NCBI GenBank assembly: GCA_023248495.1
Contig: JAHFEK010000013.1
Location: forward strand, 1-54,074
DNA from: Nitrospinales bacterium
Lineage (GTDB): Bacteria; Nitrospinota_A; UBA7883; JACRGQ01
DNA length: 54,074 nt
Direction of reading: 5' to 3'
Shown: piece after piece, positions 25,057 through 49,642 of the stretch
Position numbering within the stretch: the first letter of the stretch is position 1
Layout of the letters: the number at the start of each line of letters is the position of its first letter
The notes under the pieces: generated by a model
The model's database searches: none
The model's input: only the letters and a program-made list of their open reading frames with translations
What the model was told of the DNA's origin: nothing
Program-made: the position numbers and the translations under genes

Positions 25057-25086
25057 ATTGGTGCGCCCGACTGGATTTGAACCAGT
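25057..25086. repeat. attL: duplicated 3' end of tRNA-Arg
   Basis: attggtgcgcccgactggatttgaaccagt, identical to 49563-49592. Confidence 0.95.
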
Positions 25087-26330: not shown

Positions 26331-26384
26331 AATGGCCAAGTTTACCACCACGTTCCCAGGGGTGCAAGCGCGGGAGGTTCGCAT

Positions 26385-26991: not shown

Positions 26992-27189
26992 TCAATAAGT
27001 ACGCTTCTGGAATGGCTGCAAGCAATAATCGATCTCCTCCCTGTCAAAAAACAGGACGGTTTCGCCAACCTTGATTGATGGCATTGCTCTGTGGCCACCC
27101 CGTTCGTAAATCGTTTCAATAGGGACAGCCAGGTAGGAGCCAACTTCTTTTGTCTTCACGTTTGCTCTCTTTTCGGTCATTTCTTCCAT
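26992..27189 (-). CDS. Excisionase-like HTH (MerR/HTH_17) DNA-binding protein
   Basis: KEVGSYLAVPIETIYERGGHRAMPSIKVGETVLFFDREEIDYCL. Confidence 0.7.
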   Translation of the reverse strand: MEEMTEKRANVKTKEVGSYLAVPIETIYERGGHRAMPSIKVGETVLFFDREEIDYCLQPFQKRTY

Positions 27190-27857
27190 GCTTCAACCGC
27201 ATTTTTTGTTGTCAAAATCGTGTCAGGGGCATGAGGGCCGAAGCATGGAGGCTTCACGATCAACGGAGACCTCTTAAGCTGGTGCAGCTCAGCTATCACC
27301 TGATTGCCGGAAATGACTTTGTGTCGGAGAGTCGAATTTGGGCCTTCGTGTTCTAGCAACTCCCTTACGGTCGTAATACCAGCAGTTGCACAGACGCTAT
27401 GAACCGCAATTGAACGACGCAGGCAGTGAGGGTATCTTTTGCGTCGGTTGGTAAATTCCGCCTTGTCGTAGTATTTGCGGTAAAGGGCAAAGACCATGTT
27501 TCTGGATATCGGCTTGTGTTCTCCTGAGGGGAATAGGTAGATGGATATTTCTTTTCTTTGGCAGAGGTATATTTTCAGGATGTCTTTTATTTCAGCGGGA
27601 AGATCATAGACCTCGGATTGGGATTTTGTGACCCTTGTGATGCTGATGAGGTTGTTCGCAAGGTTGAGGTCATCAACGAGGAGGAGGCCAACTTCAGAAG
27701 CTCTTAACCCGTAGCGATAGATGAGATTGAACATGACGAAATCCTGATAATTGTCGACAGCCCCAAAGAACTTAATGAGCTCTTCCCGTAATAGGTGTTT
27801 GAGAGCAGGGCCTGAATGACGAGACAATTTCCTGTCCATTGTTTCCAAATCCTCCAT
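27177..27857 (-). CDS. Tyrosine recombinase paralog lacking the catalytic Tyr
   Basis: LRASEVGLL, HCLRRSIAVH, LLEHEGPNSTLRHKV (His in place of Tyr); homologous to 27958-28719. Confidence 0.8.
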   Translation of the reverse strand: MEDLETMDRKLSRHSGPALKHLLREELIKFFGAVDNYQDFVMFNLIYRYGLRASEVGLLLVDDLNLANNLISITRVTKSQSEVYDLPAEIKDILKIYLCQRKEISIYLFPSGEHKPISRNMVFALYRKYYDKAEFTNRRKRYPHCLRRSIAVHSVCATAGITTVRELLEHEGPNSTLRHKVISGNQVIAELHQLKRSPLIVKPPCFGPHAPDTILTTKNAVEAWKK

Positions 27858-29195: not shown

Positions 29196-30503
29196 CAGGC
29201 TGTTGAAAAACGTCCCTTCTGCGGCATTTTTCTTTTCCGTATGCTGATTTGCAGGGCTGTCCTTTGGTGGTGCGGCATCCATTGATTTCATTTCGCCCCC
29301 ACCGGAGTGAAGCTTTAAAGTTCCGTCTAACTTGAAGTAGCCGTCAGGCGGCGCGGGCAAGTAATCGCCCGATGCGGAGCAGGTTGTAGGCCGAGAGAAC
29401 CCATAGACATTGTTCCCGTACCCGCTCAAGTCCACGGAAGCGGGTCTTACGTAGATTGCCCACCGTTTTTATCCAGCCGAATATTTCTTCCACCAGTTTC
29501 CGTTTCCGCTGGCTCACCTGATATCCCTTGTGCTTGGCGGTGCGGCTATCCAGACCTTGCGTCTTGCGTCCCGCTATCATGGCAATGTGCGGTTTAACGC
29601 ACCGCGTGAGCAAACCGGTCACGAATTCCTGCGCATGATACCCTTTGTCGGCCCCCAGCGTCTTGGGTTCTATGTCCCTCTTTATCAGCCGATCCAGCAT
29701 GGCAAGTGCGGCATCACGCTCGGCGTTTCCGTCGGCCTTCAACAGCTCAACATCGACACACAACCCATGCCGGTTCTCCATAAGGGCGTTGCAGGAATAC
29801 GACAGCTTGGCCTCCTTGCCCTTCCCTTTGCGTATCAGCCGTGCGTCCGGGTCGGTCGTGCTGGCATGGGTGGCATTGTTCCGCTTCTCCCCGTGGAAGT
29901 CCACTGACGGGTTCGACGGGTCATCGTCATCGTTGTTGACCTGCTCTTTCCCCTTGGCTACGAAACTCTTCATTGAAGCGTACGCTTCGATCAACGTCCC
30001 ATCTACCGTGAAATGTTCGTCCGAAAGAAGATTCTCCGTCCGGGCATATGTCACCACCGTCGCGAAAAACTCCCGCGCCACCTCATGTTTTATCAGACGG
30101 TCGCGGTTCTTGCTGAATGTGCTGTGGTCGAACGACCGTTCCTCAAGGCTCATATCAAGAAACCACCGGAACAGGATGTTGTAGTCCAGGCTTTCGCAGA
30201 ACAGCCGGTCACTCCGCATGGAATACAATGCCATCAGAAGCATACTCTTGAGCAGCCGTTCCGGCGGTATTGATGGGCGGCCCGTCTGCGCGTACATCCC
30301 GTCAAACGTCCGATTAAGCCCCTTGAGGACAGCATCCGCCTGACATTTAACAATACGCAGAGGATGTTCTTGCGGCACCCGTTGTTCAGGAGAAAGATAA
30401 GTGAATATGAACCCTTGCTCTTCGTTCGCGCCACGCATTTCGCACCCCCTTTATGGTTTACGGAATTAGTAACACGATGAAATGGGGTTTTTCAACAACC
30501 TGT
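29196..30503 (-). mobile_element. Intact IS5-group insertion sequence, 1308 bp
   Basis: Terminal inverted repeats CAGGcTGTTGAAAAACg / cGTTTTTCAACAaCCTG; TTAG target duplication at 29192-29195 and 30504-30507. Confidence 0.9.
29344..30438 (-). CDS. IS5-family DDE transposase
   Basis: YAQTGRPSIPPERLLKSMLL, FDHSTFSKNRDRL, FTVDGTLIEAYAS, C-terminal REQCLWVLSAYNLLRIGRL. Confidence 0.92.
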   Translation of the reverse strand: MRGANEEQGFIFTYLSPEQRVPQEHPLRIVKCQADAVLKGLNRTFDGMYAQTGRPSIPPERLLKSMLLMALYSMRSDRLFCESLDYNILFRWFLDMSLEERSFDHSTFSKNRDRLIKHEVAREFFATVVTYARTENLLSDEHFTVDGTLIEAYASMKSFVAKGKEQVNNDDDDPSNPSVDFHGEKRNNATHASTTDPDARLIRKGKGKEAKLSYSCNALMENRHGLCVDVELLKADGNAERDAALAMLDRLIKRDIEPKTLGADKGYHAQEFVTGLLTRCVKPHIAMIAGRKTQGLDSRTAKHKGYQVSQRKRKLVEEIFGWIKTVGNLRKTRFRGLERVREQCLWVLSAYNLLRIGRLLARAA

Positions 30504-31650: not shown

Positions 31651-31866
31651 GGTCAGGATGGGCGGATATGACATAAGTACCATTTTGTCACATCTTTTTA
31701 TCAGTAATGTAACAACCCGGCTGGGCTATCCCGGACCGAGAGACGATCTTTTCTATACACGTATTTATGCGCGCATCCTTTTTTATACGCACATCCCGCA
31801 TAAATTATGCGTAAATACTCATAAATCCAAAACCGCCGCTACGCTTTTTCGTAGTAGGCGTTTTTT
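31651..31866 (+). ncRNA. Candidate orphan sRNA (about 215 nt)
   Basis: Consensus promoter followed by an intrinsic-terminator-like hairpin with no convincing ORF between; internal imperfect inverted repeat 31761-31818. Confidence 0.3.
31834..31866 (+). terminator. Rho-independent terminator, possibly bidirectional
   Basis: CGCCgCTACG-CTTTTT-CGTAGtaGGCG followed by TTTTTT. Confidence 0.65.
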
Positions 31867-33515
31867 CTGCTTCCATGCAGCTTCAATTTCCCGGCTTTGG
31901 TCATACGCCGGAGCAGGTTGCTGGCTTGGTCGCCTTTCAGGCTGCACAAATCCATCGCATCTCCGCGGGTGATGCGTCCATGAGCTTCAACATATTCCAG
32001 AATCATAGCCTCCTGCCGGATCGGGTCAATCCCATGCGCATGGACGTATCCCGCCGCCCCGCCAAATATCTTATAAAGCCGGGCGCTCAGGTGGTATACC
32101 CGGCCCCGTTTTTCACCCTTGGCTTCCACAAGACCCCGCTCAACAAGCCGCTCAACAATGGCCCTTGCATGAGATTCACCACGTTGTGTCAATATTTCGA
32201 GTGTTTGCATATCCGCTCGCCGCTCATGTTGCAGTTGATTGAGGATCAGCAAATCTTCCAGTCCAAGGGGTGTTCCAGCCTTATCCTGTTCATAAACAAA
32301 CGCGGAAAATTCAAGCGAAGCGTCCCCGCCGCGCAATAAAAGCCGGACAGTATCCTTATCGCTTTGCGAATAATCCGGGAGCGGGCGGCCATAGGCAAGC
32401 TGTCCGAAATAAATCTTGTCTATGCCCCGCCCCGTGGTTTCCACAAGGCCAATGCGCCGGAATGCTTCCGCCAAAATTGGATTGCGAGGCTTCGGCTCGT
32501 GCGTAAGCAGGTTGTTGAGGGTAATCCCTTCAAGAAAACCGCCGGGATTGGTGAATAAAAGATGATCGGCATGCAACTGGATGTGCGTCGCCCCCAGCCG
32601 CGCATAATCACGGTGGAGAACGGCGTTATTCACCGCCTCACGAAAAGCCACCGGGGCATAATCCGGGATTGGCAACCGCAACATCCCTATCACGGCTTCT
32701 TTCTCTCCATTTCGCGCCCTAAAACGCTCTTCAATTGCTTCAAGGGTTTTCAGCAATGGAGAATAAAACCAGTCGTTGACTACAACGTCACCTTTTATAT
32801 CCAGAACCTGGAAGGCCACCTGATGAGCGGGAACAGAGCGGCGCAATATTTCCTCTCTCCCCAAAATCAATAACCCGGCCACATTGGGCAACAGGTCGCC
32901 GCCCCTGCTTTCCACAAGCCGCAATGCTTGCGCCAATTGCCGGTCATCAAGGGATAGCAACACCTCATCGCCGCGCCGCCCTCGGATGGTCTGGCGTAAG
33001 CGCTCGATTTCCAACGGATCAATATCAGCCCACGAGACACCTTCTGGAATTTGCGCTGAGTAATCCACCAGACCCAGGTCGCTTTTTCTGCTTGTGTGCT
33101 CGTGCGGATAAAACGGCCTACATTCCGGGCCGCTGGTTGTCATTGCCCGGCGAAGGCATTTCCCTTCTTTCGTGGCGCAGATTTCCGGGTATGCGCCCAC
33201 CTCGATGGCGATAACGGCCTTTCCTTCCACCTCATGTGTGCTGACCCGCGCATTTATTGCCGGGGAGGTATTATTGAAAATCGCCGCTTGTAATTTAAAT
33301 GGGTCGGTACTTGAACCATGACGCGGCCTCGCCCCAGTAACGGTGCCGTCATTCTCAACGCCTATCAGCAAAACACCGCCGGAGGTGTTCGCCAAGCAAA
33401 CGATGTTTTCGTATATTTCCCGGTCGGAAAGCGGCTCCTTTGGCTCGCTTTTGAACTCAACGGATACACTTTCCCCAGCTTTCAGGATGTCCTTTAATCG
33501 GTTAATCGTTTCCAC
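31839..33515 (-). CDS. AlbA_2/Schlafen-AAA_4-like ATP-binding protein (COG2865-type, RecG-related)
   Basis: VSVEFKSEPKEPLSDREIYENIVCLANTSGGVLLIGVENDG; REAVNNAVLHRDY; C-terminal winged HTH; probable GTG start at 33515. Confidence 0.85.
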   Translation of the reverse strand: METINRLKDILKAGESVSVEFKSEPKEPLSDREIYENIVCLANTSGGVLLIGVENDGTVTGARPRHGSSTDPFKLQAAIFNNTSPAINARVSTHEVEGKAVIAIEVGAYPEICATKEGKCLRRAMTTSGPECRPFYPHEHTSRKSDLGLVDYSAQIPEGVSWADIDPLEIERLRQTIRGRRGDEVLLSLDDRQLAQALRLVESRGGDLLPNVAGLLILGREEILRRSVPAHQVAFQVLDIKGDVVVNDWFYSPLLKTLEAIEERFRARNGEKEAVIGMLRLPIPDYAPVAFREAVNNAVLHRDYARLGATHIQLHADHLLFTNPGGFLEGITLNNLLTHEPKPRNPILAEAFRRIGLVETTGRGIDKIYFGQLAYGRPLPDYSQSDKDTVRLLLRGGDASLEFSAFVYEQDKAGTPLGLEDLLILNQLQHERRADMQTLEILTQRGESHARAIVERLVERGLVEAKGEKRGRVYHLSARLYKIFGGAAGYVHAHGIDPIRQEAMILEYVEAHGRITRGDAMDLCSLKGDQASNLLRRMTKAGKLKLHGSRKNAYYEKA

Positions 33516-33525
33516 TTTTTTTATT

Positions 33526-33930
33526 TTACCCCGTTGTCTTGGAAGCATACCATTCGCGCTCTTCGACTCCTGGCAGCCGTGTTAACAACACAACAATATG
33601 AAACCACGGTAATTGGTCAGCGGCCTGCTGACCAAATGACCGTTCCGGGCATTCCTCAGCGAAACGCCTCATGTATTTAAGGTTGGTGGGTGAAAAACCT
33701 TTCATTTCGGGAAAAGCCGAACGCAGGTCCTTGGCTAAAGTTTCGATGACCTTGGCACCCCATCCGTGAACTTGCTGTTTTTTCAGAATACCGCGTCCGA
33801 TCTCCCAATAAAGCCGGACAAGTTCGCCATTGACGGCCAAGGTTGCCCTAAACTGGACTGTGGCAATGCGTGATTTGAGATCCGCCAGCCAAACTGAATA
33901 ATCGGGTGGCATTGGGCTAAGTTGCGTCAT
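33526..33930 (-). pseudogene. Truncated DUF1016 (YhcG/PDDEXK-associated) N-terminal domain
   Basis: FRATLAVNGELVRLYWEIGRGILKKQQVHGWGAKVIETLAKDLRSAFPEMKGFSPTNLKYMRRFAE; ends at EREWYASKTTG* before the nuclease domain. Confidence 0.8.
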
Positions 33931-34040: not shown

Positions 34041-35498
34041 TTAAGCTTTTGAACCTGAGGGTTTATTTGTTGAAGAAGCATCTATGAGGATTATATCAAT
34101 GCAGTTCTGCAATTTGAGGTCTTTTATGATCCTTTGAACTTTTGACAACTCCTCTTTGGAAAAAAATAAAATGACCTTCAACGAACGCTCAGCATCGCTT
34201 GCCTTCTCATATATTTCAACCTGCTTTTCCATATTTCGCCGAAGGTGTGTATTCTTTGCCAATTTGAATTCAACGAGGGATTTATCGGAATTACCCCTAG
34301 ATATTTTGAAATCTACTGGCCCCCTCCCATCGTTTACTTCCCTGCTTACATCCGATGACGTGGCAAACCAAGTTAAACGAAATAGAATTTGCAAGTCGCT
34401 CTCTCGCCGGATCGGTTCACCGTTAGTATAAAATAATTTGTGTCCCCCCTTGTTTTCAATTACGTCCTTAAGAAATAGAACTCTTTGGAGTGCTTCTTCA
34501 TATGTACCGATCCCGATTGAATAAAATTTATGAGTATTTTCGAGGTCTTTGACGAACTCACGAAGTTGCTTTATAAATATATCTTCAATTTCCTTTACCC
34601 TTATCTCACTTACTGAGACCGCTTGCTCCCCATGCTTTTCTTTAAAACTTATGAAGTAGTCAACGAACTCTGGAAACTTTGTTATAACTTTACCTCTCGC
34701 CTCGCGGACATCCTTGTCCTTTGGCTTTTTAGGCAAAACGCTACGAAGATAGTTATTTAATTGTGCCCTGAGCTGAGCATTTGGAATAGCTTGGGCAACC
34801 TCGTCATAATTATTAAATAAGTCCGACCTGTTTATCCATGTGTCTTCTTTTGTCAAAATATCTTTGGGGGTCAGAATGACATAATCACCGTTATGGAATG
34901 GTAATTCAAACCGGCCACTTTCCCATGATTCCGTTTGGTAGTTGAAGCGCACCTTATTAAGTGCCACAATTTTCCTCTGGTCATCCTTTAAAAACCTCTT
35001 AGCGAACGCTTGTGTATAGTTAAGCAGAAATGCTTTGATAAGATTTGTCGTAAAATCACTTATCTTATCTTTACCAACTCCCGCTTTCACGAGGCAGAGC
35101 TTTTCAAGGTGGCTTCCCTTCGTAAGTGTTTCTCCGCCAAAATCCTTGAAGACCTCATGCAAATTATTAAAGAGCGCTGTTGCGAAGTCAGGGCCAAGAC
35201 CAGCTCCGCCATTACCAACGAGGCAGAACCCCAGCCAATTTTGCTTAATCTCTGGAAATTCATACCAATTCTGCAAAAGACCTTTATCTAGAATTCCGGG
35301 ATCAGCCTTATCTTTCAGGAATGTGATGTAGCGTATTATGTCAACATGGAGTTGTTTATATTCAGGCTTAATGCTATTGAAAAGCAAGAAAGGATCGATA
35401 AAAAGTGGAAGGTCATTGATTAGCGATATATTAAATGCCCCGTAATTCTCAACATCGTCAGGGTCTATCCCAAAAAAATCAGAAAAATGTATCTGCAT
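34041..35498 (-). CDS. Uncharacterised protein with C-terminal PD-(D/E)XK-like nuclease motif
   Basis: GRGPVDFKISRGNSDKSLVEFKLAKNTHLRRNMEKQVEIYEKA (D...ExK...Q). Confidence 0.65.
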   Translation of the reverse strand: MQIHFSDFFGIDPDDVENYGAFNISLINDLPLFIDPFLLFNSIKPEYKQLHVDIIRYITFLKDKADPGILDKGLLQNWYEFPEIKQNWLGFCLVGNGGAGLGPDFATALFNNLHEVFKDFGGETLTKGSHLEKLCLVKAGVGKDKISDFTTNLIKAFLLNYTQAFAKRFLKDDQRKIVALNKVRFNYQTESWESGRFELPFHNGDYVILTPKDILTKEDTWINRSDLFNNYDEVAQAIPNAQLRAQLNNYLRSVLPKKPKDKDVREARGKVITKFPEFVDYFISFKEKHGEQAVSVSEIRVKEIEDIFIKQLREFVKDLENTHKFYSIGIGTYEEALQRVLFLKDVIENKGGHKLFYTNGEPIRRESDLQILFRLTWFATSSDVSREVNDGRGPVDFKISRGNSDKSLVEFKLAKNTHLRRNMEKQVEIYEKASDAERSLKVILFFSKEELSKVQRIIKDLKLQNCIDIILIDASSTNKPSGSKA

Positions 35499-36376: not shown

Positions 36377-37216
36377 TTATTTTCTCGCCATTGTTTCCGT
36401 GTGGGTGTCAAAAAGGAATGTTGCGAGGGTTGAGGCGGCTCCGACCGCTAGTTTCGCGTGTCGTGGATCCAACCTTTCAGCTTTGCCGTGTTTTCCATGT
36501 CCCGTGCCATAAAGGCCGCGAAGCTCCGCAAGGCCGTTGCCAATTGCGCCGAGATTTTGAAGTAACCGTTTTAACACATCACTTCCCCTCCCAGACTCAT
36601 GGATACCTTCCGGGACAAGCTCCAATTCTTTTAAGGCCTTTTTTGTCAGCTCCTGAATGTCCGGTGAACCGGACACGGGCTTTCCTCGTTCCGCAAGAAT
36701 CGTCTTGCAACAGGTTTCTATCAGCTCCTTTGCCGTGCCGATGGCAAGAGATGGATCGTTTTCAATGGATGCTTCCATGCGCCGAATCTGCTCGCCTAGA
36801 TGTTTTGCATCGAAAACAACGGCTGTATTTTTCAAATGATTCAGATTTACGTTGCCAGCAAGTAGTCGATTTGCAATGCTCCTGCATTGCCGTGCCAGTT
36901 CAATATTTTTTTCATCTTGCACAGAATCTGTGCGCCAGGAAGCAGATTTTGCCCGTGACGCAATTAATTCCGCACGTTCAATCATAGCGAGAAGAACCTT
37001 CCCGACTATGGCATTTTCGTCAAGCTTCCAGAATTCACGAAGTTTTTTGGCTTTGGAAGCGCCATTTGACCGATACCTTTCTGAGTGGATGTCTATATTG
37101 GCGGCATCCCCAAAGAAAACTCCGAACGTTCCGTCCGAAAAATCGAGCACATACCCGCCAGACATATTAAGTAATTTTTCTAATTGGGCTGTTTCTTGAG
37201 GATTAAGAGAGCTCAT
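36377..37216 (-). CDS. Abortive-infection-like protein with Abi_C (AbiJ-type) C-terminus
   Basis: DPSLAIGTAKELIETCCKTIL...LKRLLQNLGAIGNGLAELRGLYGTGHGKH...RHAKLAVGAASTLATFLFDTH. Confidence 0.8.
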   Translation of the reverse strand: MSSLNPQETAQLEKLLNMSGGYVLDFSDGTFGVFFGDAANIDIHSERYRSNGASKAKKLREFWKLDENAIVGKVLLAMIERAELIASRAKSASWRTDSVQDEKNIELARQCRSIANRLLAGNVNLNHLKNTAVVFDAKHLGEQIRRMEASIENDPSLAIGTAKELIETCCKTILAERGKPVSGSPDIQELTKKALKELELVPEGIHESGRGSDVLKRLLQNLGAIGNGLAELRGLYGTGHGKHGKAERLDPRHAKLAVGAASTLATFLFDTHTETMARK

Positions 37217-37274: not shown

Positions 37275-40200
37275 TCATGAATTTTTTCTCAATGGCGCGG
37301 ACTCCTCTACGAGGCGAATTTCCTCCAGCGTGAGACTGTAAAGTGCATAGACATGCTGGTCAATCTCGCGCTCCAGAGACGTTGTGTCTGTGGACGCGGA
37401 CGTCTGCTTCGCGACGAGGATTCGATCAACGAGCGTGATTAACCGGTCTGCGATACGCGAATTTGACCTAACCACGTTAATGGTCGGGATTGGCAAGCGC
37501 CCAAGCTGGTTGGTTCGAATCTTTGTAAAGGCACCTTCGGTGAGGCCGAATGCGATGAGCCGGACATACCATGTCGCGAAGGCAGAGTTAATTATCGCCA
37601 AAAGATATTTTAGCGGATAGCCCTGCTTGAGATCTTTTGGATAAACAGCGTAGAGAGAACTCAGAAAATAGCGATGATTCTCGTCGAGGGTAGCAATTAT
37701 ACGGGAACCCGTCTCGCGCACCGCGAGCTTGGGAGTTTCGTAAAATGTCTGATTCTGCCAGTTGCGGGCGAGCCAATCGCCATATTTGAGATACAGATCG
37801 TGTTCCCGAGTTTCGTAGCGCTCAATGGAGCGCCCACGAAGGCTGGGTCTCCACGGCAAGGAAAGTTTCTTGGCGGAAGTTGCTACGAACTGGTCGTCGT
37901 CGCCGGTCTTGATACATTGCCGGATGAAACAAAGATCAGCGAGAGGTCTGCTATAACTTTCGATACGCGCAAGCACTGCGCGAAGCGCAGGAGGAATGAA
38001 GATGTCGAAACTCTGAGTCGGACCCTGCGCAAGTTCAGATTGCGGAACCCTGTAATCAAAACCACGCGCCAGTTCGTCGATTGTCGCTACTTGCATGCGA
38101 ACACCAGTCTGATGATTAGCGGTCAGACCTTTTGCAAAACCAATGATACAGACGTGAACCGTGGGATCATGGAAAACACGCATTCCGAAATTCGTGATTT
38201 CATTGATATTGCCTTCATCAAGGAGAAAGCGGCGGAGGCGCTTGCTATACACGTTGGACAGGATCGGTGATGGAATAATCAGGATAACCCTGCCGGCATT
38301 TCGTCGCGCCAACCACACTGCTTGCTCCCAGAACATCTCGTAGATGTCGATACGTCCCTCACAGGTCATGTAGTGGGTCGAGAAATATTTCAGCAATTCC
38401 TCGTCTTGCACCATGCCATAAGGCGGATTTCCAATAACTACGTCAAAGCCTTCGGTGATGCCAAACATCCACTCAGAATCAAAGAAGCCAGCCGACATAT
38501 TTTGGTCATAAGGATCCCAACTGGCAAGCTTGCGTGCTGTACCGACGTCCCAGCCGTCGCTCTTTAGCAGCTCTGCGATTTCGGCACGAAGCTTAGCATC
38601 TTGCTCGCGGCATTTCCCTTTCTTCGCGGGCGTCTTGGCAAGGAAATGCTCTTCCCGCACCTTACGAAGCTGAGTCTCCTTGATGCCAATATCTGGATTG
38701 CGGAGTAGCTGCTGGCCGGGGCGTTTTATTCCGATGAGTGTGTTGGCGGCCACGAACTTGGTTTCGAGGTTGGGCAGCGGACGAATGCCAAGATTATCGG
38801 CCTGCGGGTTCATCTTCTGGTCAACGATCAGCGAAATAAAGAAGCGGAGCTTTGAGATCTGAACGGCGATGGGCTGGATGTCCACGCCGTAGATGCAGTT
38901 CTCGATGAGGTAGAGCTTGCGGCCATAGTCGAGTTCGTTTGCGCCAAAGGTTTGTTCAATATCGGCGAGCACTCGCTCACGTACTGATGAATCAGGAATC
39001 TCACCTGCCTTGGCGAGTTGTCTGGCTTTCCAGCGCTCATTACCGGGGTCGAGCTTGCTAAGAACGAACACGAGCTTATGCAAGACGCCCATGGGGAACG
39101 CGCCGGAGCCGCAAGCGGGGTCGAGAATTTTTAAGTGGTCAATGGCTTCGATAAGGGCGGCAACCTCGGCGGCACCGAAGAGGTGCGGCTGGTCGTTGTA
39201 GGCGAAAAGTTGGCGGAGGCGTTCTTCGGAATTTGAAGCTGTTGGAATTGCAGTTTCGAGCTTGGTTTTGAGGCTGGCGATGAGCGATTCGTCCACCATG
39301 TAATTGACAATTTCGCGCGGAGTATAAAACGAGCCGGTCTGCTTGCGGGCGGTGGCTCCGGTCTCTGGATTGTAGGCGGCAAGAAGATTCTCGAAGACCT
39401 TGCCGAGCAGTTCGGGATCGAGCGCGATTTCTTCCTCAATAGGGGTATTTTCAGCGACAGTAAACTTGTAGCGGGCAAAAATGTGGATAAGGCCAGCCAC
39501 TTGGGCTGATTTATACTTTTTGTCGCCGTAGGCCCCACTAAGATCAACAACGCGCTCATCACCGAAGAACAGGTCATTGGGTATCTTGAGCGGGTTGTCG
39601 TCACGGTCGGAAAAACCGTCAATCCGGATGTATTCCGGCTTTTCTTTAGTTCCAAGCGTTTTGTCGAGGCACTCAAAGAGACCGCCGTTCATAAACGGAA
39701 TCCCGGCGAAGAGCTTGAGAAGTTCGCCAGGGGTCTTCAGCAAACTCCGATAGCGGTAGAGATTGTGCGCCATGAAATGCTGACCGTCTTTGCGGAACTC
39801 GCGTTTATCCATATCCTGGTTGAGAGTGGCGAAGAAGAGGTTTTGCAGAATGGCCTTGTAATAGGTGCTCTCCTTTGGGCCGAAGTCGTTCAACAGCGCG
39901 GGAACCTTGCGCGGATCAAACAGTGCATCAGGCAATAGGCCCTTTTCCTTGAGAAACCAGCAAAAAGTAACGCGGGTGAGGAGGCGTATGAGGCTGAGCG
40001 AGTCGCGGCCATCGGCATCTTTGGGCGCGAGCTTGGGAAATTTGACCTGAGGCAGTGACCAGAAATACCAGTTGGCGAGTTCCTGAAAAAAACGCTTATT
40101 AAGCGCGGAGGTGTCGAGCGTCTTTTGCCAGGCGGCATGGAGTTCTACAAAGTTACTGAAGCGATGTTCTTCGTACAATGCGCCAAGTGAGAGGTCGTAA

Positions 40201-40775
40201 AGAATTTCAATGTGAGCACGATGAGTGTCGGCGCAACTAATGTCCTGGATGAGTGTGACTTTTTCCAGAACGTCCTTGCCCTCTTCGCGCTTGTGCAGAC
40301 GGCGATTGATGATGGAAAGAGTCAACGTCTCTCCATACCGGAAGAGAATAAGGGCAGGCATGTTGAAGAGTTTGTTTACCTCGCGGGTGATGCCCGCAAG
40401 GGCTGTGCGTGAGTAGTGGTTGCCCGTTAATTCGATAGCGAAGAAAAGATAGGATTCGATGATTGTGCCGTTGTAGGTGCCTTTGCTCTCGAAGTCGAAC
40501 TGCTGTTTACCGGCGGCGCGGATTTCATCGTCGGTAAGCTGGAAGAGGAAGTCGATGGTTTTCCATTCGCCCGGCAACGCATAGCGAGGATTCAGCTCGC
40601 GGCCTTGCGAAAAAGTGGACAGGAAAGTGGCGAGTGTGTTGGGCTTTAACGGAAGCCGCTTCTTGCTGGTATAGCCGAGTACTTCAAGCAAATGCGATGA
40701 TGCTTCAGCCAGTGGTTGACCGGGGAATTTGTTTAGCGCGGCCTCGATGGCCTTCCTGTGCTCCAAGGCGTTCAT
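37275..40775 (-). CDS. Eco57I-like N6-adenine DNA methyltransferase (restriction-modification-like)
   Basis: ILDPACGSGAFPMGVLHKL (motif I), YGVDIQPIAVQISKLRFFISL, VVIGNPPYGM (motif IV). Confidence 0.88.
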   Translation of the reverse strand: MNALEHRKAIEAALNKFPGQPLAEASSHLLEVLGYTSKKRLPLKPNTLATFLSTFSQGRELNPRYALPGEWKTIDFLFQLTDDEIRAAGKQQFDFESKGTYNGTIIESYLFFAIELTGNHYSRTALAGITREVNKLFNMPALILFRYGETLTLSIINRRLHKREEGKDVLEKVTLIQDISCADTHRAHIEILYDLSLGALYEEHRFSNFVELHAAWQKTLDTSALNKRFFQELANWYFWSLPQVKFPKLAPKDADGRDSLSLIRLLTRVTFCWFLKEKGLLPDALFDPRKVPALLNDFGPKESTYYKAILQNLFFATLNQDMDKREFRKDGQHFMAHNLYRYRSLLKTPGELLKLFAGIPFMNGGLFECLDKTLGTKEKPEYIRIDGFSDRDDNPLKIPNDLFFGDERVVDLSGAYGDKKYKSAQVAGLIHIFARYKFTVAENTPIEEEIALDPELLGKVFENLLAAYNPETGATARKQTGSFYTPREIVNYMVDESLIASLKTKLETAIPTASNSEERLRQLFAYNDQPHLFGAAEVAALIEAIDHLKILDPACGSGAFPMGVLHKLVFVLSKLDPGNERWKARQLAKAGEIPDSSVRERVLADIEQTFGANELDYGRKLYLIENCIYGVDIQPIAVQISKLRFFISLIVDQKMNPQADNLGIRPLPNLETKFVAANTLIGIKRPGQQLLRNPDIGIKETQLRKVREEHFLAKTPAKKGKCREQDAKLRAEIAELLKSDGWDVGTARKLASWDPYDQNMSAGFFDSEWMFGITEGFDVVIGNPPYGMVQDEELLKYFSTHYMTCEGRIDIYEMFWEQAVWLARRNAGRVILIIPSPILSNVYSKRLRRFLLDEGNINEITNFGMRVFHDPTVHVCIIGFAKGLTANHQTGVRMQVATIDELARGFDYRVPQSELAQGPTQSFDIFIPPALRAVLARIESYSRPLADLCFIRQCIKTGDDDQFVATSAKKLSLPWRPSLRGRSIERYETREHDLYLKYGDWLARNWQNQTFYETPKLAVRETGSRIIATLDENHRYFLSSLYAVYPKDLKQGYPLKYLLAIINSAFATWYVRLIAFGLTEGAFTKIRTNQLGRLPIPTINVVRSNSRIADRLITLVDRILVAKQTSASTDTTSLEREIDQHVYALYSLTLEEIRLVEESAPLRKNS

Positions 40776-43700
40776 TGCGGTTTAATTACCAGCCAAGTGA
40801 TAAGCTCTAAATCAGTTTTTTCATTTACTTGATCCTGTTCATCAGGAAGGATAAAACCGCGTCCGAATTGCAGGCCGGAAGCGGCACGTTTGCGGAAAGT
40901 AGTGGCTACAGAATCGACGGCCTTTTTCAAGAGTACATCGTATTCCTTCATGTCAGAGCCATGATTGGTCTGCTGGTCAAAAAGATTGCAGAGTTGGGTG
41001 TAAGGCTCGACCGCGCCGGAACAAAGAATGCGGTAGATTTCGAGAATCTGCTTAGGATGGGCAAAACCGAAGCGGACATTGCCATCATCGAGAACATAGA
41101 CCAGGAAATAGGGGTGGAGAGGATTGATTTCCTCGTTGGCATTACCCTTGCCAGCGCCGGGGATGCCCGCCTTTGTCTCTTGGCGGAAGCAAAAAATGAC
41201 CCCCGGCCCAATGATTTTGTGCTCTGCGCTGGACAGCACTACGGTGTAAAGACCGAAGGGGGCATCTTCGAGCGCGGTGCGGTTTGCCTCAATATATTTC
41301 AAAAGCTCCAAGCGGAAGTCGTCGAGGGTGAACTCGGTGAGGGATACGCTATCTCCCAGGTCTTCAAGATCGAGCACTTCATCTTTGAGCTTGAGCAACT
41401 GTTTATCGCGATAACGGAGGTCTTCGTGGATGAGTTCTTCTATCTCCGTATTTTGGAGAATGTTGTCCTCGAAGGTGGCGGCAATGTCCACAAGCGCCAT
41501 GCGTGATTCGACGCGGTTCTTAAGATTGATATATTTGTTGAGATCCTCGGTGGGCCAGAAATTGACGAGCTGGACGGTACGGCTGGCGCTTCCGATACGG
41601 TCAATACGTCCGAAGCGTTGGATGATACGGACTGGATTCCAGTGGATGTCGTAATTGACGAGGTAATCGCAGTCCTGCAGGTTCTGGCCTTCGGATATGC
41701 AGTCTGTGGCGATTATGAGGTCAATTTCCCCTTCTTGTGGCATAAACGGAATTTTGCCGCGATTCTTTGAGCGCGGAGAGAAATTAGTAAGTATCTGGTT
41801 GTAAGCAGTCCCCCCAAAGGTAGTGCGCGTGTTGCCGCTGCCGCAGACAAGGGCTATGTGGATACCCAAATCATCTTTTGCCCACTTTTCCAACGATTCG
41901 TAAAGGTAGGTCGCGGTATCGGCAAAGGCGGTGAAGACCAGAACTTTTTTGTTCGGCTGGCCGAGCTTGTTAATGGTGGGCTTGGCAACCTTGGCTTCAA
42001 TGAGCTTCTTCAGGTCTTTAAGTTTCGCGTCCGTCTCCGGGGTGACATTCTGTGCCGCGCTCAAAAGGGTAAATAGTTGGTCTTTGTCTTTCTTGAGGTC
42101 ATTGAGCCAGTTCTTCCCGTTATCCAACTCCAAGTGTTCAAGACGATATTTCAACTTGCCACCGACCTGCAGGGCATCTTCAAGCTCATCGTCTTCGCCG
42201 GAATCACGGAAATCCAGTTCATGCTCCTTTGAAGCGGCATTATTTGATGCTTTTAAAAAGTCGCCTATTTTTCCCTCAAGCGCCTCTATCTTGGCGATAG
42301 TTCGTTCCATGGTGATCTCAAAGGATTTCACGGAACTTTCGAGGCGCTTGAGAAAGTTCACCTTCATCATGCCGATCAGGAATTCTTCACGGTCAGCTTG
42401 GCTGAACGGGTCGTGCGCTGATTTTTGGTACTCCTGCTTGAACTCTTCCTTGACATACTTGGACGGGTTGAACAGCGATAACTTGTAGCCATCAATTTCG
42501 TCATTGATTTTGTCGTAGGAAAGGAATCGTCCGCGCGTGTCAATTTTTGAGTATATCGATAGCGGCTTTTCGCGCTTCGGGAACCCACCAAGCTGGACAA
42601 CGTTTTCTTTATAATATTTCTGGATGTGTTTGCGTGAACGGGCGATGGTTAGCTCGTCGAGCAGTTTATAGAAAGAAGCGTTTAGCTTTTCCAACAGGTC
42701 GGCGGTTTTTCGTTCCGAACCGTGTTTGCGCGCCCAATGCGAGAATACTTTTTGAGCTGAGGTTAGCGTTTCCTTAAGACTGTCAATGCCTAGCGATTCG
42801 GAAAAAGTATGATCGTTCCCCTCGGTGAGGAAATAAAGCTGGTTGCGCAGGTCTTTCAGGTCATTATTTACCGGCGTGGCCGAAAGGAGCAGCACTTTGG
42901 TGCGGACGCCAAACTTGATGATTTCGTCCATAAGCCTTTGATAGCGGCTTTTCCTTATAACCTCGCCCGCATCATCGCGCTTGCCTGGCGTGTTGTTGCG
43001 GAAATTGTGCGACTCGTCGATGACCACAAGGTCGTAGTTGCCCCAATTTAGCGTTTCAAGGTTTATGTCGCCTGTATGCCCACTGTCCCGGCTGAGGTCG
43101 GTGTGTGAAAGAACATCGTAACGGAAACGGTCTGAGAGAAAAGGATTGAGTTGATCGTTATTTGTGTAGACCGTCCAGTTATCCCGCAATTTCTTGGGGC
43201 AGAGGACAAGGACGCGCTCGTTCTTTAGTTCAAAATATTTGATAACAGCAAGAGCCTCGAAGGTTTTGCCCAGACCAACGCTATCGGCGATGATGCAGCC
43301 ATTGTGCCGGAGAATCTTGTTGATAGCGCCTTTGACGCCATCTTTCTGGAAATCGTAAAGCGCTTTCCACAACGCGGTATCAAAAAGGCTGGTTCGGCCA
43401 AGGTCAGCATCGGTCTTGCCAGTATCCTTCAGGAAATCCTCGAAGATGTGAAAGAGCGTCTTGTAGTAAATGAACTCCGCTGAATTGTTCTCATAAAGCT
43501 GCTTAAGGTATTGAAGAACCTCCTGTTTAACATCCTTGACCAGATCGTCATTACTCCAAAGCTCCTCAAACCATTGCTTGAGTTCCTGGCGGTCACGATT
43601 GCTATCGACAATCAGATTCAGCTCGATGTTGTTATTGCCGACGCCTAGGCCGAGGCCGCGCACCGTGAAATTGGAGCTACCTAGAATGGCATCTTCCACT

Positions 43701-44098
43701 CCTCGCGTCGCTATGTGATACATCTTGCCATGAAGCAGGTTGGATTGTTTGATGGTCTTAATATCAACCTTTTGCTCTATCCAGTCGGCGCATTCTTTGG
43801 CAACGCGCTTTTGCTGAAGTTTGTTGGTAAGCTCCAATCCATCGGCGTCAATGATGAAGGCTTTCTTTTCCGTCTTGTTTGGATCGAGACGGTTGATGAA
43901 GGATGGCTCGCCGAAAAGAAAATTCAGGTGCTCGATTTTATTCAGACTTTCCTTGAGTGCGTCGTAGGCATAGATAGTGAAGTAAGCGGAGACAATCGAG
44001 AGATGGGAACCACTCTGGATTTTTTCTTTTATGAAGTCCGCAACGGCACCCCGGGTGTGATTGTCGCGCAGTCCAGAATTGCTCGTAGTAATAGGCAT
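40772..44098 (-). CDS. PLD-domain SNF2-family helicase
   Basis: LLHGKMYHIATRGVEDAILGSSNFT (PLD HxK); IADSVGLGKTFEAL (Walker A); VIDESHNFRN; ISEGQNLQDCDYLVNYDIHWNPVRIIQRFGRIDRIGS. Confidence 0.9.
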   Translation of the reverse strand: MPITTSNSGLRDNHTRGAVADFIKEKIQSGSHLSIVSAYFTIYAYDALKESLNKIEHLNFLFGEPSFINRLDPNKTEKKAFIIDADGLELTNKLQQKRVAKECADWIEQKVDIKTIKQSNLLHGKMYHIATRGVEDAILGSSNFTVRGLGLGVGNNNIELNLIVDSNRDRQELKQWFEELWSNDDLVKDVKQEVLQYLKQLYENNSAEFIYYKTLFHIFEDFLKDTGKTDADLGRTSLFDTALWKALYDFQKDGVKGAINKILRHNGCIIADSVGLGKTFEALAVIKYFELKNERVLVLCPKKLRDNWTVYTNNDQLNPFLSDRFRYDVLSHTDLSRDSGHTGDINLETLNWGNYDLVVIDESHNFRNNTPGKRDDAGEVIRKSRYQRLMDEIIKFGVRTKVLLLSATPVNNDLKDLRNQLYFLTEGNDHTFSESLGIDSLKETLTSAQKVFSHWARKHGSERKTADLLEKLNASFYKLLDELTIARSRKHIQKYYKENVVQLGGFPKREKPLSIYSKIDTRGRFLSYDKINDEIDGYKLSLFNPSKYVKEEFKQEYQKSAHDPFSQADREEFLIGMMKVNFLKRLESSVKSFEITMERTIAKIEALEGKIGDFLKASNNAASKEHELDFRDSGEDDELEDALQVGGKLKYRLEHLELDNGKNWLNDLKKDKDQLFTLLSAAQNVTPETDAKLKDLKKLIEAKVAKPTINKLGQPNKKVLVFTAFADTATYLYESLEKWAKDDLGIHIALVCGSGNTRTTFGGTAYNQILTNFSPRSKNRGKIPFMPQEGEIDLIIATDCISEGQNLQDCDYLVNYDIHWNPVRIIQRFGRIDRIGSASRTVQLVNFWPTEDLNKYINLKNRVESRMALVDIAATFEDNILQNTEIEELIHEDLRYRDKQLLKLKDEVLDLEDLGDSVSLTEFTLDDFRLELLKYIEANRTALEDAPFGLYTVVLSSAEHKIIGPGVIFCFRQETKAGIPGAGKGNANEEINPLHPYFLVYVLDDGNVRFGFAHPKQILEIYRILCSGAVEPYTQLCNLFDQQTNHGSDMKEYDVLLKKAVDSVATTFRKRAASGLQFGRGFILPDEQDQVNEKTDLELITWLVIKPQ

Positions 44099-44357: not shown

Positions 44358-45116
44358 CTAATTATGCCGGGTGTGCTTATCGATCTCTTCTAATGCGCCA
44401 AAGAAGCTTTCAGCATATCTATCCGCTTTATTCCTTACGTATTCAGGTAAAAGATAAAATGCCAGATAAAATGCGCCAATCAGAACGGCAGCTTCGATCA
44501 TGCTGAGCAACAAGATGTCTTTGGCTAAGTAGGATTTAATCCAGCTAGCCATGCACCCAATCAACGCAAAGGAAAACCACAAAAAACGAAGACCGGTAAA
44601 ATTTCTTGCAAATCCATAATCAATATTATGTGCATTCAATAGCCCTGATTTATCAAAGGAGCGCAGCTTTACCCGCATTGCGGTTATCGCATCGTTTATC
44701 AATGCTTCCAATTCCTGAATTTCTTGCGTTTTACTGTTTTTAATCTCTAGACCAGTAACTCTTTTAATTGCCGCATACCACAGCATTTTTTGTTGCATGG
44801 AACGCTGGGAATTGGTTGGAAACAACCATTGATTTGTTGGGGAGTCATAAGGCCAGCGTGGCCAAAGCAATATTTGGAGCCTATTGCCAGCAGCAGATGC
44901 CAAATGTGAAATGCCGATAGATAGGACAGCCCCGACACCTGTCCCTCCGAGCAGTATCAATATCCAGCCATCAATATTTTCATGGAATGCCGCCGCAGGC
45001 AAAGCAAGAAAGAAAAATGACAATAAGCCGGGCAGAAAACGAGCTCGCCGCTCATATTCATTGCTCAGATTAATGTAACTTAGCCAAGAGGCATTTTTAT
45101 TATCAGATTCACTCAT
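44358..45116 (-). CDS. Multi-TM membrane protein, third gene of the E2-E1-JAB operon
   Basis: Two N-terminal and two C-terminal hydrophobic segments; ATGA overlap with upstream gene. Confidence 0.75.
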   Translation of the reverse strand: MSESDNKNASWLSYINLSNEYERRARFLPGLLSFFFLALPAAAFHENIDGWILILLGGTGVGAVLSIGISHLASAAGNRLQILLWPRWPYDSPTNQWLFPTNSQRSMQQKMLWYAAIKRVTGLEIKNSKTQEIQELEALINDAITAMRVKLRSFDKSGLLNAHNIDYGFARNFTGLRFLWFSFALIGCMASWIKSYLAKDILLLSMIEAAVLIGAFYLAFYLLPEYVRNKADRYAESFFGALEEIDKHTRHN

Positions 45117-47458
45117 GCGATTCCATCCACCATATCCCCCGCAAGAACTATAGCGCATTTTCCATCTTCTCTCTTTTTCATCTTTCCGACATACGCCCCA
45201 AGTGAGTTCTGCCCACTATCAGGGTTAACAATAACCAATATTGTTTTATAGGTAGGCATTTTTGAATCGATAAGATATTTTGAGACGGTCGCCGCATCTT
45301 TTATGCTGGGAGAAGGTGTGCTACCGGGATGGGTATGCCAAAATCCGATAAAACGCATATTGCCAAGACTTTCCCCCTCTAAACGGCAGCTTTCCTCTTG
45401 CACACCGTCAATACCACTAATAAACTCGTTAGGGCGCTCTTCACTATCTGGTGGGGGCGGTGTCACCTTAGATACCCATACCACCCTTGCAGCTTCATCA
45501 ATCTGCCCATAAAGCACCCCGCCGGTTTCATACGATTGCCCTTTTCTTATCCTTACATCATTCCCCAGTCGAAGCATGAAGGCATATTCATTCTCATCAA
45601 TTCTTATTTCGTATGGGTCGCCAGCAGTGCGTATTACAATATCATTCTTAAACTCATATCTAATGGGATACCGTCCCTGCTTTTCTGAAAACATATGAGG
45701 TTGCACAAAAAAGGTCGCTGATGCTGCTGTGGCTCTTAATATTTCCCTTGCCATTACATTCGTCATTGCGGCGGCAAGTGAAGATACGTCAGCTCCTGAC
45801 CCTTGGAAAGTAGGTTCTGAACAACCCGGCTCTGGCTGAAACAGACTCTTTCCATAAGCGTCCGCATCAGGCCAAAACTGTCTTTTATAATAACGCCCCC
45901 GTTCATTTACGCTAAGGCTTAGCAATGCTTTTCTTGAAACGTCATATAGACCACCGGAATAATCATTCTTGCGATATAGAACCAGTGCTGATTGAGCATT
46001 TGAGCCAAAGGCAAGTGAAAAGGTGGATAGCTTGGGGAAAGAACCTCTTTGAATCAAATATTCTATATATAGAAGCACAGTCTTGGAGGCCGTAGCGTCT
46101 ATAATATAATCGATTTCTTTATCATTTCCCAAAGCAACAATTTTATCCTCTATATTTTTAAGATCATCGGTAAATATAGAGACATCAACTTTATGCGATA
46201 TTGCATCAAGCCTATTTGCTAAAGCCTCGCTTTTAAATTTCCCAATATCACCATACAAATAATTCTGACGCGACAGAAGCCCGGGAGTTACTTTCTTGTT
46301 ATCAACAAGAATCAGCTTCTTCACCCCCGCACGTGCAAAATGCTCCGCGACATAAGAACCAATGGCCCCACAGCCAATCAGCAGCACAGATTTATCTCGA
46401 AACGCCATCATTGGAGTTTCACCATCCCGCCTCATAACTACTTCTGGCCGATCTTCCATGACTTGACACCAGCTTATCTTGGCCTTTTCTTTGAGAGTAG
46501 TTGCCGCTTCACTAACAGTTGAGCCATAGTCTAAAAACGGTTTATTTTTTATCGTTTGAGCAAAAGTTTTTAGTTCCTTTACATCATCAGGGTTTATTAA
46601 CCACGCGGAAAGATGCTGAATGCGCTTGCCACCTGCCACGCCGCGCATAGGCGATCCAATAATTATTAAGCCTAAATTAGCTTCATTAATATTGGCCGCA
46701 TTAAGCATCGAGAGAAACAATTCGATCTTATTAACCCCGTTAGGTGATAGCTCCTCAATTAAAGTACCTATAGATCGCGGGTACTCATACGGCATAAACT
46801 TTTTAAATAAGAGCGCATAAGCATAAACAAACCCGGGATCAAGTTTCTGGTCTCTTGCAATCCATTCCACAATTTCAAGTTTTTTGGAAGCCGGATTCTG
46901 CTTGCTGGAAATAGGAGTCATTATGCATTTTGCATGACCAATCCAATCATCATTCTCGATATGTGGCGTATCAACTGTTGGTATAAGCAAAAAATCGTTA
47001 TTGGAAGTATAAACAGCTGGTGGATGTAGAGGTGCTCCTATTGGATCAAGGTTGTTCGCTGCAGCATCTTCAATCCATTTGAGTAAACGCGCAATGTACC
47101 CTCTAATCCCATTACTCGGCTCATACTGAGAATCAGGCGCCAAATAAAGGCATGGAAAGTACTTATACGAAACGTGCGAATGCCCGGCAAATCTTTCGTG
47201 CTTTATAAAACATATTGGAACATCGAAAGGAAACCCAGATTGCAATAAAAGAAAGACCTCTTCCGTATCATCAATGGTTGCACCGCCAGATCGCTTTTTA
47301 AATTTTTTACAGTCAACCAACAGGCCAATTTCAAGAAAGCCCGCAAATATCTTTGAAAGGCCAACCTCATTAATTATTATTCTTCCCGCGCAATCGGCCT
47401 CAATATTTCTTAAGTCTTCTATAGCCTGCCTTTGTCCAGTTGACCAGTTGTCACCCAT
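45113..47458 (-). CDS. E2-E1(ThiF)-JAB triple-fusion protein
   Basis: E2-like HVSYKYFPCLYLAPDSQYEPSNGIRGYIARLLKWIED; ThiF VLLIGCGAIGSYVAEHFARAGVKKLILVDNKKV; GCSEPTFQGS candidate E1 Cys; JAMM E...HTHPGSTPSPSIKD (HxHx7SxxD). Confidence 0.9.
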   Translation of the reverse strand: MGDNWSTGQRQAIEDLRNIEADCAGRIIINEVGLSKIFAGFLEIGLLVDCKKFKKRSGGATIDDTEEVFLLLQSGFPFDVPICFIKHERFAGHSHVSYKYFPCLYLAPDSQYEPSNGIRGYIARLLKWIEDAAANNLDPIGAPLHPPAVYTSNNDFLLIPTVDTPHIENDDWIGHAKCIMTPISSKQNPASKKLEIVEWIARDQKLDPGFVYAYALLFKKFMPYEYPRSIGTLIEELSPNGVNKIELFLSMLNAANINEANLGLIIIGSPMRGVAGGKRIQHLSAWLINPDDVKELKTFAQTIKNKPFLDYGSTVSEAATTLKEKAKISWCQVMEDRPEVVMRRDGETPMMAFRDKSVLLIGCGAIGSYVAEHFARAGVKKLILVDNKKVTPGLLSRQNYLYGDIGKFKSEALANRLDAISHKVDVSIFTDDLKNIEDKIVALGNDKEIDYIIDATASKTVLLYIEYLIQRGSFPKLSTFSLAFGSNAQSALVLYRKNDYSGGLYDVSRKALLSLSVNERGRYYKRQFWPDADAYGKSLFQPEPGCSEPTFQGSGADVSSLAAAMTNVMAREILRATAASATFFVQPHMFSEKQGRYPIRYEFKNDIVIRTAGDPYEIRIDENEYAFMLRLGNDVRIRKGQSYETGGVLYGQIDEAARVVWVSKVTPPPPDSEERPNEFISGIDGVQEESCRLEGESLGNMRFIGFWHTHPGSTPSPSIKDAATVSKYLIDSKMPTYKTILVIVNPDSGQNSLGAYVGKMKKREDGKCAIVLAGDMVDGIA

Positions 47459-48611
47459 ACCCACCCCTAGATTGCGGGGCTTTGCCGTCGCTTCGGCTGT
47501 TAAACACAACTGCGCTCAGTTTCTCGGCTTTGTCATCGGACGGGCCTTCATCAGATTTCTGTTTTTGATACGAAAGCCCTTTTTCTGTCATTCCAAAAAC
47601 CACGGGCACTGGGGCCTCTACAGGATGCTCCATCGTGCAAATAAAATCGGTAGGCGCAACATTTTCAATGTAGCGATTAAATGCTTTCGCATGCGGTGGA
47701 TTATCGCCTTCACTATTCCTTGCAGGAATTGGCCTGCTACTAGCGATAATATAATGATTAGTAGCAACTGCCGAGTCTCTTATGTCATCCAAAATGTCAT
47801 GCCGAGGGGTGTCTTCATTTACCTCGTCATCCTTATAGTACATGGCCGATTTTGAGCAGTGATGCGGTGCAAGAAAAACGTCCCACGCAACATCTTGTTC
47901 ATCGCTACGGTCATAGATTTTCCTAAGAATAGGATACGACAAATCTCCTAACAACATTATTTTCCCTTTTGATGGACCATTAATCAGAGTTATTTGCATA
48001 GCCAAACTCGTGTCGTTTCTGTCTCCATCAAGATCATCCTTAAATGGAGAGTGAAAGAATGCCTTAAAATGCGAGGAATAATCCGTGCCGTTAAGCATTG
48101 ATGTCGTTTTGCCGGGAACGGAAATATAAATATTCGGAAAGCCCCTATAGTCCTCTTTTAAATCCTCACTGTACCCAACAATCCTTATGCGATCTCCAGA
48201 AGCAACCTCACCTTTATTATCAATTACCTTTTTGATTCGCCTTTTGGTCTCTTCCTGGAAAGCCTTTGCGTCAGAACATAGGTCTTTCTTAAATTCATCA
48301 AAAACTCTTGGAGTAAACCAAATCTCGCCGATCTGGGCTTTTTTTAGAAGCTCCTCAAACCCCTTGCAATGATCTTCATCAGGATGTGTTAAGGCGAACA
48401 CGGCCAGATAAGGCTCCCCATCTTTCTTAGGCAGGAGTTTAAGTAGTTCATCCAAAACGGGGATTTCTGCCGATTCATCATTTTCAGCTTTTTCGTGATG
48501 GCATATATCCACTTGGAGAAATACATCCTCATTGACAATAACCGTGGTGCTATCACCATTTCCAACCGGCCAAAAAATAATCCCTCTCTCAATTTCTTCT
48601 AAATTTTTCAC
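47451..48611 (-). CDS. ComEC/Rec2-like metallo-beta-lactamase-fold protein
   Basis: FWPVGNGDSTTVIV, FALTHPDEDHCKGF, MLLGDLSYPIL, LAPHHCSKSAM. Confidence 0.88.
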   Translation of the reverse strand: MKNLEEIERGIIFWPVGNGDSTTVIVNEDVFLQVDICHHEKAENDESAEIPVLDELLKLLPKKDGEPYLAVFALTHPDEDHCKGFEELLKKAQIGEIWFTPRVFDEFKKDLCSDAKAFQEETKRRIKKVIDNKGEVASGDRIRIVGYSEDLKEDYRGFPNIYISVPGKTTSMLNGTDYSSHFKAFFHSPFKDDLDGDRNDTSLAMQITLINGPSKGKIMLLGDLSYPILRKIYDRSDEQDVAWDVFLAPHHCSKSAMYYKDDEVNEDTPRHDILDDIRDSAVATNHYIIASSRPIPARNSEGDNPPHAKAFNRYIENVAPTDFICTMEHPVEAPVPVVFGMTEKGLSYQKQKSDEGPSDDKAEKLSAVVFNSRSDGKAPQSRGGYG

Positions 48612-49562: not shown

Positions 49563-49592
49563 ATTGGTGCGCCCGACTGGATTTGAACCAGT
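49563..49592. repeat. attR within tRNA-Arg 3' end
   Basis: Identical to 25057-25086. Confidence 0.95.
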
Positions 49593-49642
49593 GGCCTTTC
49601 ACTTCGGAGGCGAACGCTCTATCCGGGCTGAGCTACGGGCGC
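49565..49642 (-). tRNA. tRNA-Arg(CCG)
   Basis: GCGCCCGTAGCTCAGCCCGGATAGAGC...GCCTCCGAAGT...GGTTCAAATCC...CGGGCGCACCA; anticodon loop CTCCGAA. Confidence 0.95.

Follow-up and report, generated by a model that had tools for sequence, protein, structure and literature searches.

How would an operon that encodes E2, E1 and JAB conjugation domains work when it contains neither a CD-NTase nor a free ubiquitin-like protein (Ubl)? The question is raised by three minus-strand genes at positions 44358-48611 of a 54,074-nucleotide stretch of DNA from a Nitrospinales bacterium (contig JAHFEK010000013.1 of assembly GCA_023248495.1); this whole stretch is referred to as the window. An original prediction, made from the sequence alone, described the gene products as a ComEC-like protein of the metallo-beta-lactamase (MBL) fold, an E2-E1-JAB fusion and a protein with multiple transmembrane (TM) segments, and proposed that conjugation and deconjugation regulate the MBL within a defence island. 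Our analysis indicates that the operon almost certainly belongs to the 6A-MBL (operon type 6a) family and that the MBL itself is probably the conjugated protein, or modifier, by way of a glycine at its C-terminus.

Results

The coordinates of the three genes and the two overlaps between them were confirmed. From 5' to 3' on the minus strand, the genes encode the ComEC-like MBL-fold hydrolase (47451-48611; GTG start, 386 aa), the E2-E1-JAB fusion (45113-47458; 781 aa from ATG, with a longer TTG open reading frame up to 47509 as an alternative) and a protein of 252 aa (44358-45116; from ATG). The last has four hydrophobic segments, in keeping with the earlier multi-TM call, and is termed the 4TM protein. 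The first two genes overlap by 8 bp (47451-47458) and the last two by 4 bp (45113-45116). Family assignment used the curated cut-offs of NCBIfam (release of June 2026). The MBL matched NF058524, the model for the 6A-MBL MBL-fold protein, over the full model length with 285.7 bits against a cut-off of 220, and the fusion matched NF058523 (6A-MBL cap2_3) with 331.7 bits against a cut-off of 320. The latter margin is narrow, and most of the tested relatives that share this layout comfortably exceed the cut-off. The two genes are adjacent in one operon, a feature of 6A-MBL that is likewise seen in relatives. Iyer et al. (2006) described as operon type 6a an arrangement in which E2, E1 and JAB form one polypeptide whose gene nearly always has a metallo-beta-lactamase gene as its neighbour (PMC1779556); the original prediction had placed such fusions near MBL genes, and Table 1, row 6a, of that paper bears this out. 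It had also allowed that the trio might match a characterised system. The MBL and E2-E1-JAB genes do, through NCBIfam, but the 4TM gene does not. The anti-phage label of 6A-MBL is taken from the NCBIfam model name alone, and a literature search on 6A-MBL and similar terms did not turn up a primary description.

The catalytic residues of the operon were examined in a comparison sample of about 100 relatives. The E2-E1-JAB fusion contains, in order, Pfam matches to Prok-E2_A (2.4e-10), ThiF (9.6e-21) and Prok-JAB (3e-7). Its predicted active sites are E2 Cys103 (47150-47152) with His95 (47174-47176), E1 Cys546 (45821-45823) within GCSEPTFQGS, and the JAMM motif H708-x-H710-x7-S718-x2-D721 (45296-45337; HTHPGSTPSPSIKD) with Glu644 (45527-45529). 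Conservation was counted over those relatives, about 90, in which the given region is present. E2 His95 and Cys103 are kept in 88/88 homologues and E1 Cys546, which lies in GCSEPTF, in 87/87; for the JAMM site, the Glu is kept in 86/86, both His and the Ser in 85/85 and the Asp in 84/84. Pfam and the invariant residues therefore agree with the earlier description of an E2 Cys region, a ThiF/E1 motif with its Cys and an intact JAMM motif, and the conservation of these sites among homologues, on which that description had been staked, holds. The metal-binding motif of the MBL is H76-x-D78-x-D80-H81 (48369-48386), with D223 and H250/H251 as further ligands. All 98 MBL homologues have D35, H76, D78, D80, H81, D223 and H250, and 97 of them have H251. 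Since the site residues of E2, E1, JAMM and MBL are invariant, the operon is, as judged from its sequences, under selection as an active enzyme set.

The C-terminus of the MBL provides a possible clue to the missing Ubl. In the AlphaFold model of this protein (mean predicted local distance difference test score, pLDDT, 84), a folded core of residues ~1-348 is followed by a low-confidence tail from ~349 (pLDDT 51-59). This predicted flexible tail ends with Gly-Gly-Tyr-Gly (residues 383-386; 47454-47465, minus strand), the end of which is the predicted donor glycine for conjugation. We analyzed the tails of the 95 MBLs whose genes are accompanied by an E2-E1-JAB gene and intact at the 3' end. 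Every one of them, with 82 distinct tails in total, shows [Phe/Tyr/His/Ala]-Gly followed by 0-5 residues, whereas the same ending occurs in 59 (10%) of 601 other genes of these loci. The stricter Gly-[Phe/Tyr]-Gly ending is found in 74 of the 95 MBLs and in only one of the 601 other genes. None of eight related MBLs from other modules, either stand-alone pairs or second MBLs by a 6A operon, has the tail motif. The window MBL ends on the glycine itself, and most relatives have extra residues behind it. A ribosome-binding site as the origin of the motif was rejected, because the glycine codons are mixed (GGC 34, GGT 30, GGG 15, GGA 15) and the number of residues that follow the glycine varies. 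These two features place the constraint on the tail at the protein level.

There is a precedent for such a tail in the type II cyclic-oligonucleotide-based anti-phage signalling system (CBASS). There, Cap2 forms a thioester with cGAS through the C-terminal Gly of cGAS, and the C-terminal Gly/Ala is conserved solely in operons having full Cap2/Cap3 (PMC10097602). Because the glycine tail is conserved and a CD-NTase is conjugated in this fashion in type II CBASS, the MBL is the likely modifier of the window operon. The prediction that the operon has neither a CD-NTase nor a free Ubl is upheld in that no match to PF18144 or PF14454 was found in the 88% complete genome; the missing free Ubl need not be a gap, since a probable modifier is present in the MBL. 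Alternatively, the E1 domain may load a separate Ubl encoded elsewhere and the MBL tail glycine may serve, for example, in docking. A separate Ubl could have been missed in a genome that is merely 88% complete. However, the one Ubl model used, Prok_Ub (PF14454), had no match anywhere in this genome, no conserved small gene was found in the operons of the ~100 relatives, and the tail motif is present in all 95 MBLs with E2-E1-JAB and in none of the eight other MBLs. We consider the involvement of a separate Ubl very improbable.

What the conjugation genes and the MBL act with was explored at the third gene position, or slot 3. Among 95 loci, profiles built from them detected 43 with a separate patatin, 29 with a patatin joined to the end of E2-E1-JAB and 15 with a 4TM protein; patatin is thus present in 72 loci, and the remaining eight have a contig end, no gene found or another protein. 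Pfam PF01734 identifies them as patatins (two examples gave 7e-19 and 3e-20), and they match PADLOC models of CBASS phospholipase effectors, weakly. The co-oriented trio of MBL, E2-E1-JAB and 4TM genes was seen in at least 14 loci, namely the window and 13 others (L009, L015, L028, L043, L044, L102, L105, L106, L107, L110, L117, L119 and L120), so that the trio does co-occur in other genomes, as the prediction required. By its gene content, slot 3 is occupied by an exchangeable candidate effector. On the MBL tree, the distribution of 4TM needs three changes, but well-supported branches force just one; since the tree has long branches, we are unsure of the number of effector swaps. In a Burkholderia relative, the slot has a TM protein with a weak match to a CBASS 2TM-effector model (E 0.001).

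Several loci have additional arrangements. Four-domain fusions of E2-E1-JAB and patatin, about 1125-1193 aa long, are encoded at L019:3650-7159 and in 28 further loci. On a Burkholderia glumae plasmid (L103:9429-11274), a 6A-MBL operon is followed by a TM protein and a second MBL of the PDC-M48B type. On a Rhodococcus plasmid (L004:4347-10785), a divergent pair of a second MBL and 4TM adjoins a 6A-MBL operon with patatin.

The best solved structural match of the MBL in Foldseek is the MBL domain of ComEC (9ic4, E 4.9e-11), which justifies the ComEC-like label given to it earlier, and RNase J and RNase Z are among the other fold matches. With such matches and an invariant metal site, the MBL might instead be a putative ComEC-like nuclease effector. 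In that case the 4TM protein, whose family accompanies MBLs whether or not conjugation genes are present, would tether the MBL to the membrane or admit its substrate; conjugation would merely tune it, the modifier could be the MBL or another protein, and the patatin of other loci would be an additional effector. However, patatin takes the slot of the 4TM protein and can be fused to E2-E1-JAB, as would be expected of an effector more than of a tether. We regard the nuclease role as unlikely and favor a slot-3 product as the effector; that the 4TM protein is itself one seems to us a reasonable, if not a strong, supposition.

The 4TM protein has no named family. Pfam and NCBIfam gave no match that passed the cut-off, PADLOC gave none, and a PDB sequence search with a 4TM profile returned chance-like matches alone, mostly to designed and helical proteins. 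A TolQ/MotA-like fold was considered and rejected, as the best E value of 0.17 was not significant and came from a low-confidence model. The stretch Tyr-Gly-x-x-Arg-Asn-x-x-Gly, located before the third hydrophobic segment, is common to 16 aligned members, with some positions nearly but not fully invariant. To limit bias, linkage was counted only in the 21 loci that plasmid searches with 4TM queries returned. An MBL-fold gene lies alongside 4TM in 20 of them, nine with a 6A-type MBL plus E2-E1-JAB and 11 with other MBLs alone. Over all 33 loci read, some of which were fetched through the MBL, the figure is 32; the sole exception (L124:4468-5052) is a truncated 4TM homologue that lies among insertion sequences and has no MBL alongside. 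Since 20 of the 21 loci have an MBL and 11 are without E2-E1-JAB, the 4TM family tracks MBLs and not conjugation genes, and three MBL groups have a 4TM partner in common. The pairs without conjugation genes are plasmid-borne (L008, L100, L101, L108, L109, L118, L121, L122, L123, L125 and L126), and their MBLs are either PDC-M48B-like or of a second type. Such a two-gene module is possibly a simple form of the system.

The 11 plasmid-borne pairs could also be explained if MBL and 4TM formed a toxin-antitoxin-like or immunity pair, one partner restraining the other, that was recruited to a place beside the conjugation genes. Against this, patatin, an improbable antitoxin, fills the same slot in 6A operons, and the 4TM partner is common to three MBL groups. 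A restraining pair therefore appears to us quite unlikely, even more so than the nuclease role.

Other observations weigh against the working of the operon that we propose below. The structure model of the 4TM protein is weak (pLDDT 65) and has no significant fold match, so that killing by membrane damage is suggested by analogy only. The 4TM gene is divergent in L007 and L113, each of which has a second MBL, and L114 has a divergent pair of 4TM and another MBL beside the operon; in L112 the 4TM gene is upstream. No recognisable patatin or 4TM gene was found in some enterobacterial plasmid copies (L104) or in a Vibrio locus (L037), and the third gene is accordingly, from gene content, dispensable in some loci or located elsewhere.

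By association, the genomic setting speaks for a role in defence. Exact 30-bp direct repeats enclose a 24.5-kb island (25057-49592), in which the operon is the outermost group of genes. One repeat (49563-49592) is at the 3' end of tRNA-Arg (49565-49642) and is a likely attachment site bounding the island; the other (25057-25086) lies by an integrase gene (25113-26384). A second integrase gene (27177-27857) is also near the left end, and G+C content is 47% in the island versus 58-59% outside. Adjoining the operon is a gene for a PLD/Snf2 helicase (40772-44098; PADLOC C3a139, HKD+Snf2), which overlaps by 4 bp that of a type IIG restriction-methyltransferase (37275-40775). Further genes encode Abi_C/AbiJ-like (36377-37216), PDC-M36A-like (34041-35498) and DUF1016_N (33526-33930) proteins, a Schlafen AlbA_2 protein with a RecG-like domain (31839-33548) and a transposase (29344-30438). 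It is the helicase, the type IIG enzyme, Abi_C and the Schlafen-like protein that argue for defence, and the earlier placement of the operon in a defence island is sustained in the form of this tRNA-Arg island.

Relatives are widely distributed. A scan of genome contigs yielded 80 loci from many phyla, including Pseudomonadota, Actinomycetota, Bacteroidota, Acidobacteriota, Chloroflexota, Cyanobacteriota and Planctomycetota, and further loci came from plasmid and viral records. A search of 24 genomes from the phylum of the window found its 4TM gene in just one, that of the window itself, consistent with horizontal spread. Close copies of one plasmid version occur in 31 of 5,426 complete E. coli genomes. 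Viral contigs contained five loci matched by the MBL, and no close relative of the E2-E1-JAB fusion or, by direct scan, of the 4TM protein.

Discussion

The window operon shares the two-gene core of MBL and E2-E1-JAB with 6A-MBL and differs in having a third gene for a 4TM protein without a family model. While the core pair is known, we did not find the tail glycine rule, the exchangeable slot 3 or the MBL-4TM linkage described in the literature searched; the tail rule or the linkage could already have been reported in the source publication of 6A-MBL.

The closest parallel is type II CBASS, with which the 6A-MBL loci have in common an enzyme with a C-terminal glycine, E1/E2 conjugation, a JAB protease and an exchangeable membrane-directed effector. 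The catalytic residues of E1/E2 and JAB are all present, and a C-terminal Gly/Ala is found, but on the MBL. WYL-domain (CapW-like) genes upstream of the operon in some relatives add to the likeness. Such regulator genes are at L104:7091-8476, L105:4170-5804 and L110:1-1300; beside them are a small nucleotidyltransferase-domain gene (L105, L110) or a small TM protein (L104, from E. coli). In contrast to type II CBASS, no CD-NTase (PF18144), and with it no synthase for a cyclic nucleotide signal, was found among the three operon genes or in this 88% complete genome, E2, E1 and JAB are domains of one polypeptide instead of two genes for Cap2 and Cap3, 1-5 residues often come after the MBL glycine, and the candidate effector and the conjugation enzyme form one protein in some loci. 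The PADLOC candidate PDC-M48B and the Avs1a/LmuA-type MBLs share the ComEC-like fold, and PDC-M48B MBLs partner the same 4TM family on plasmids; these MBLs are without the tail glycine and mostly without conjugation genes, and the window MBL matches PDC-M48B (PDLC04673) not at full length but over residues 15-98 with 35.9 bits. The Bil and Bub systems also use bacterial E1/E2/JAB-type conjugation in anti-phage defence. They rely on dedicated ubiquitin-like proteins, whereas the Prok_Ub search detected none in the window genome.

We propose that the operon follows the layout of type II CBASS but has an MBL hydrolase where the CD-NTase would be, an explanation that as a whole we hold with modest confidence. 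Sequence comparison provides the family membership, the intact active sites, the tail glycine, the exchangeable slot 3 and the 4TM-MBL linkage; from these we infer that conjugation takes place, in what order the parts act, that the 4TM protein kills and that phage is the trigger. The E1 domain would adenylate the C-terminal glycine of the flexible MBL tail, which would be handed via E1 Cys546 to E2 Cys103, and the MBL would then be covalently joined to a target. JAB may trim precursors in those relatives that have 1-5 residues beyond the glycine, and remove conjugates. Conjugation may license or localise the MBL upon sensing of infection, and MBL activity would trigger a membrane-damaging effector, patatin phospholipase in most relatives and the 4TM protein here. 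We retain the original view of a module for conjugation and deconjugation that is linked to a membrane protein and a ComEC-like MBL, while its suggestion that conjugation regulates an MBL nuclease is kept as a conditional one.

The operon is less novel than earlier supposed, being a catalogued system with a variant in its effector slot; the tail rule and the MBL-4TM linkage raise its interest. In type II CBASS, ubiquitin-like conjugation acts on an enzyme that lacks the ubiquitin fold (PMC10097602). The chances seem to us evenly divided that here a metallo-hydrolase without a ubiquitin fold is a ubiquitin-like modifier and that MBL systems form a defence family parallel to CBASS, with simple (MBL and effector) and conjugating (MBL, E2-E1-JAB and effector) forms and with 4TM as a new effector class. 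Gly386 of the MBL is a concrete residue for mutation, and the 4TM proteins, a family of membrane proteins that is widespread, unnamed and regularly partnered by an MBL, are candidate effectors. If the proposal is true, a second, unrelated enzyme would follow the same tail rule, and this would point to a general principle by which conjugation enzymes prime the signalling enzyme of their operon.

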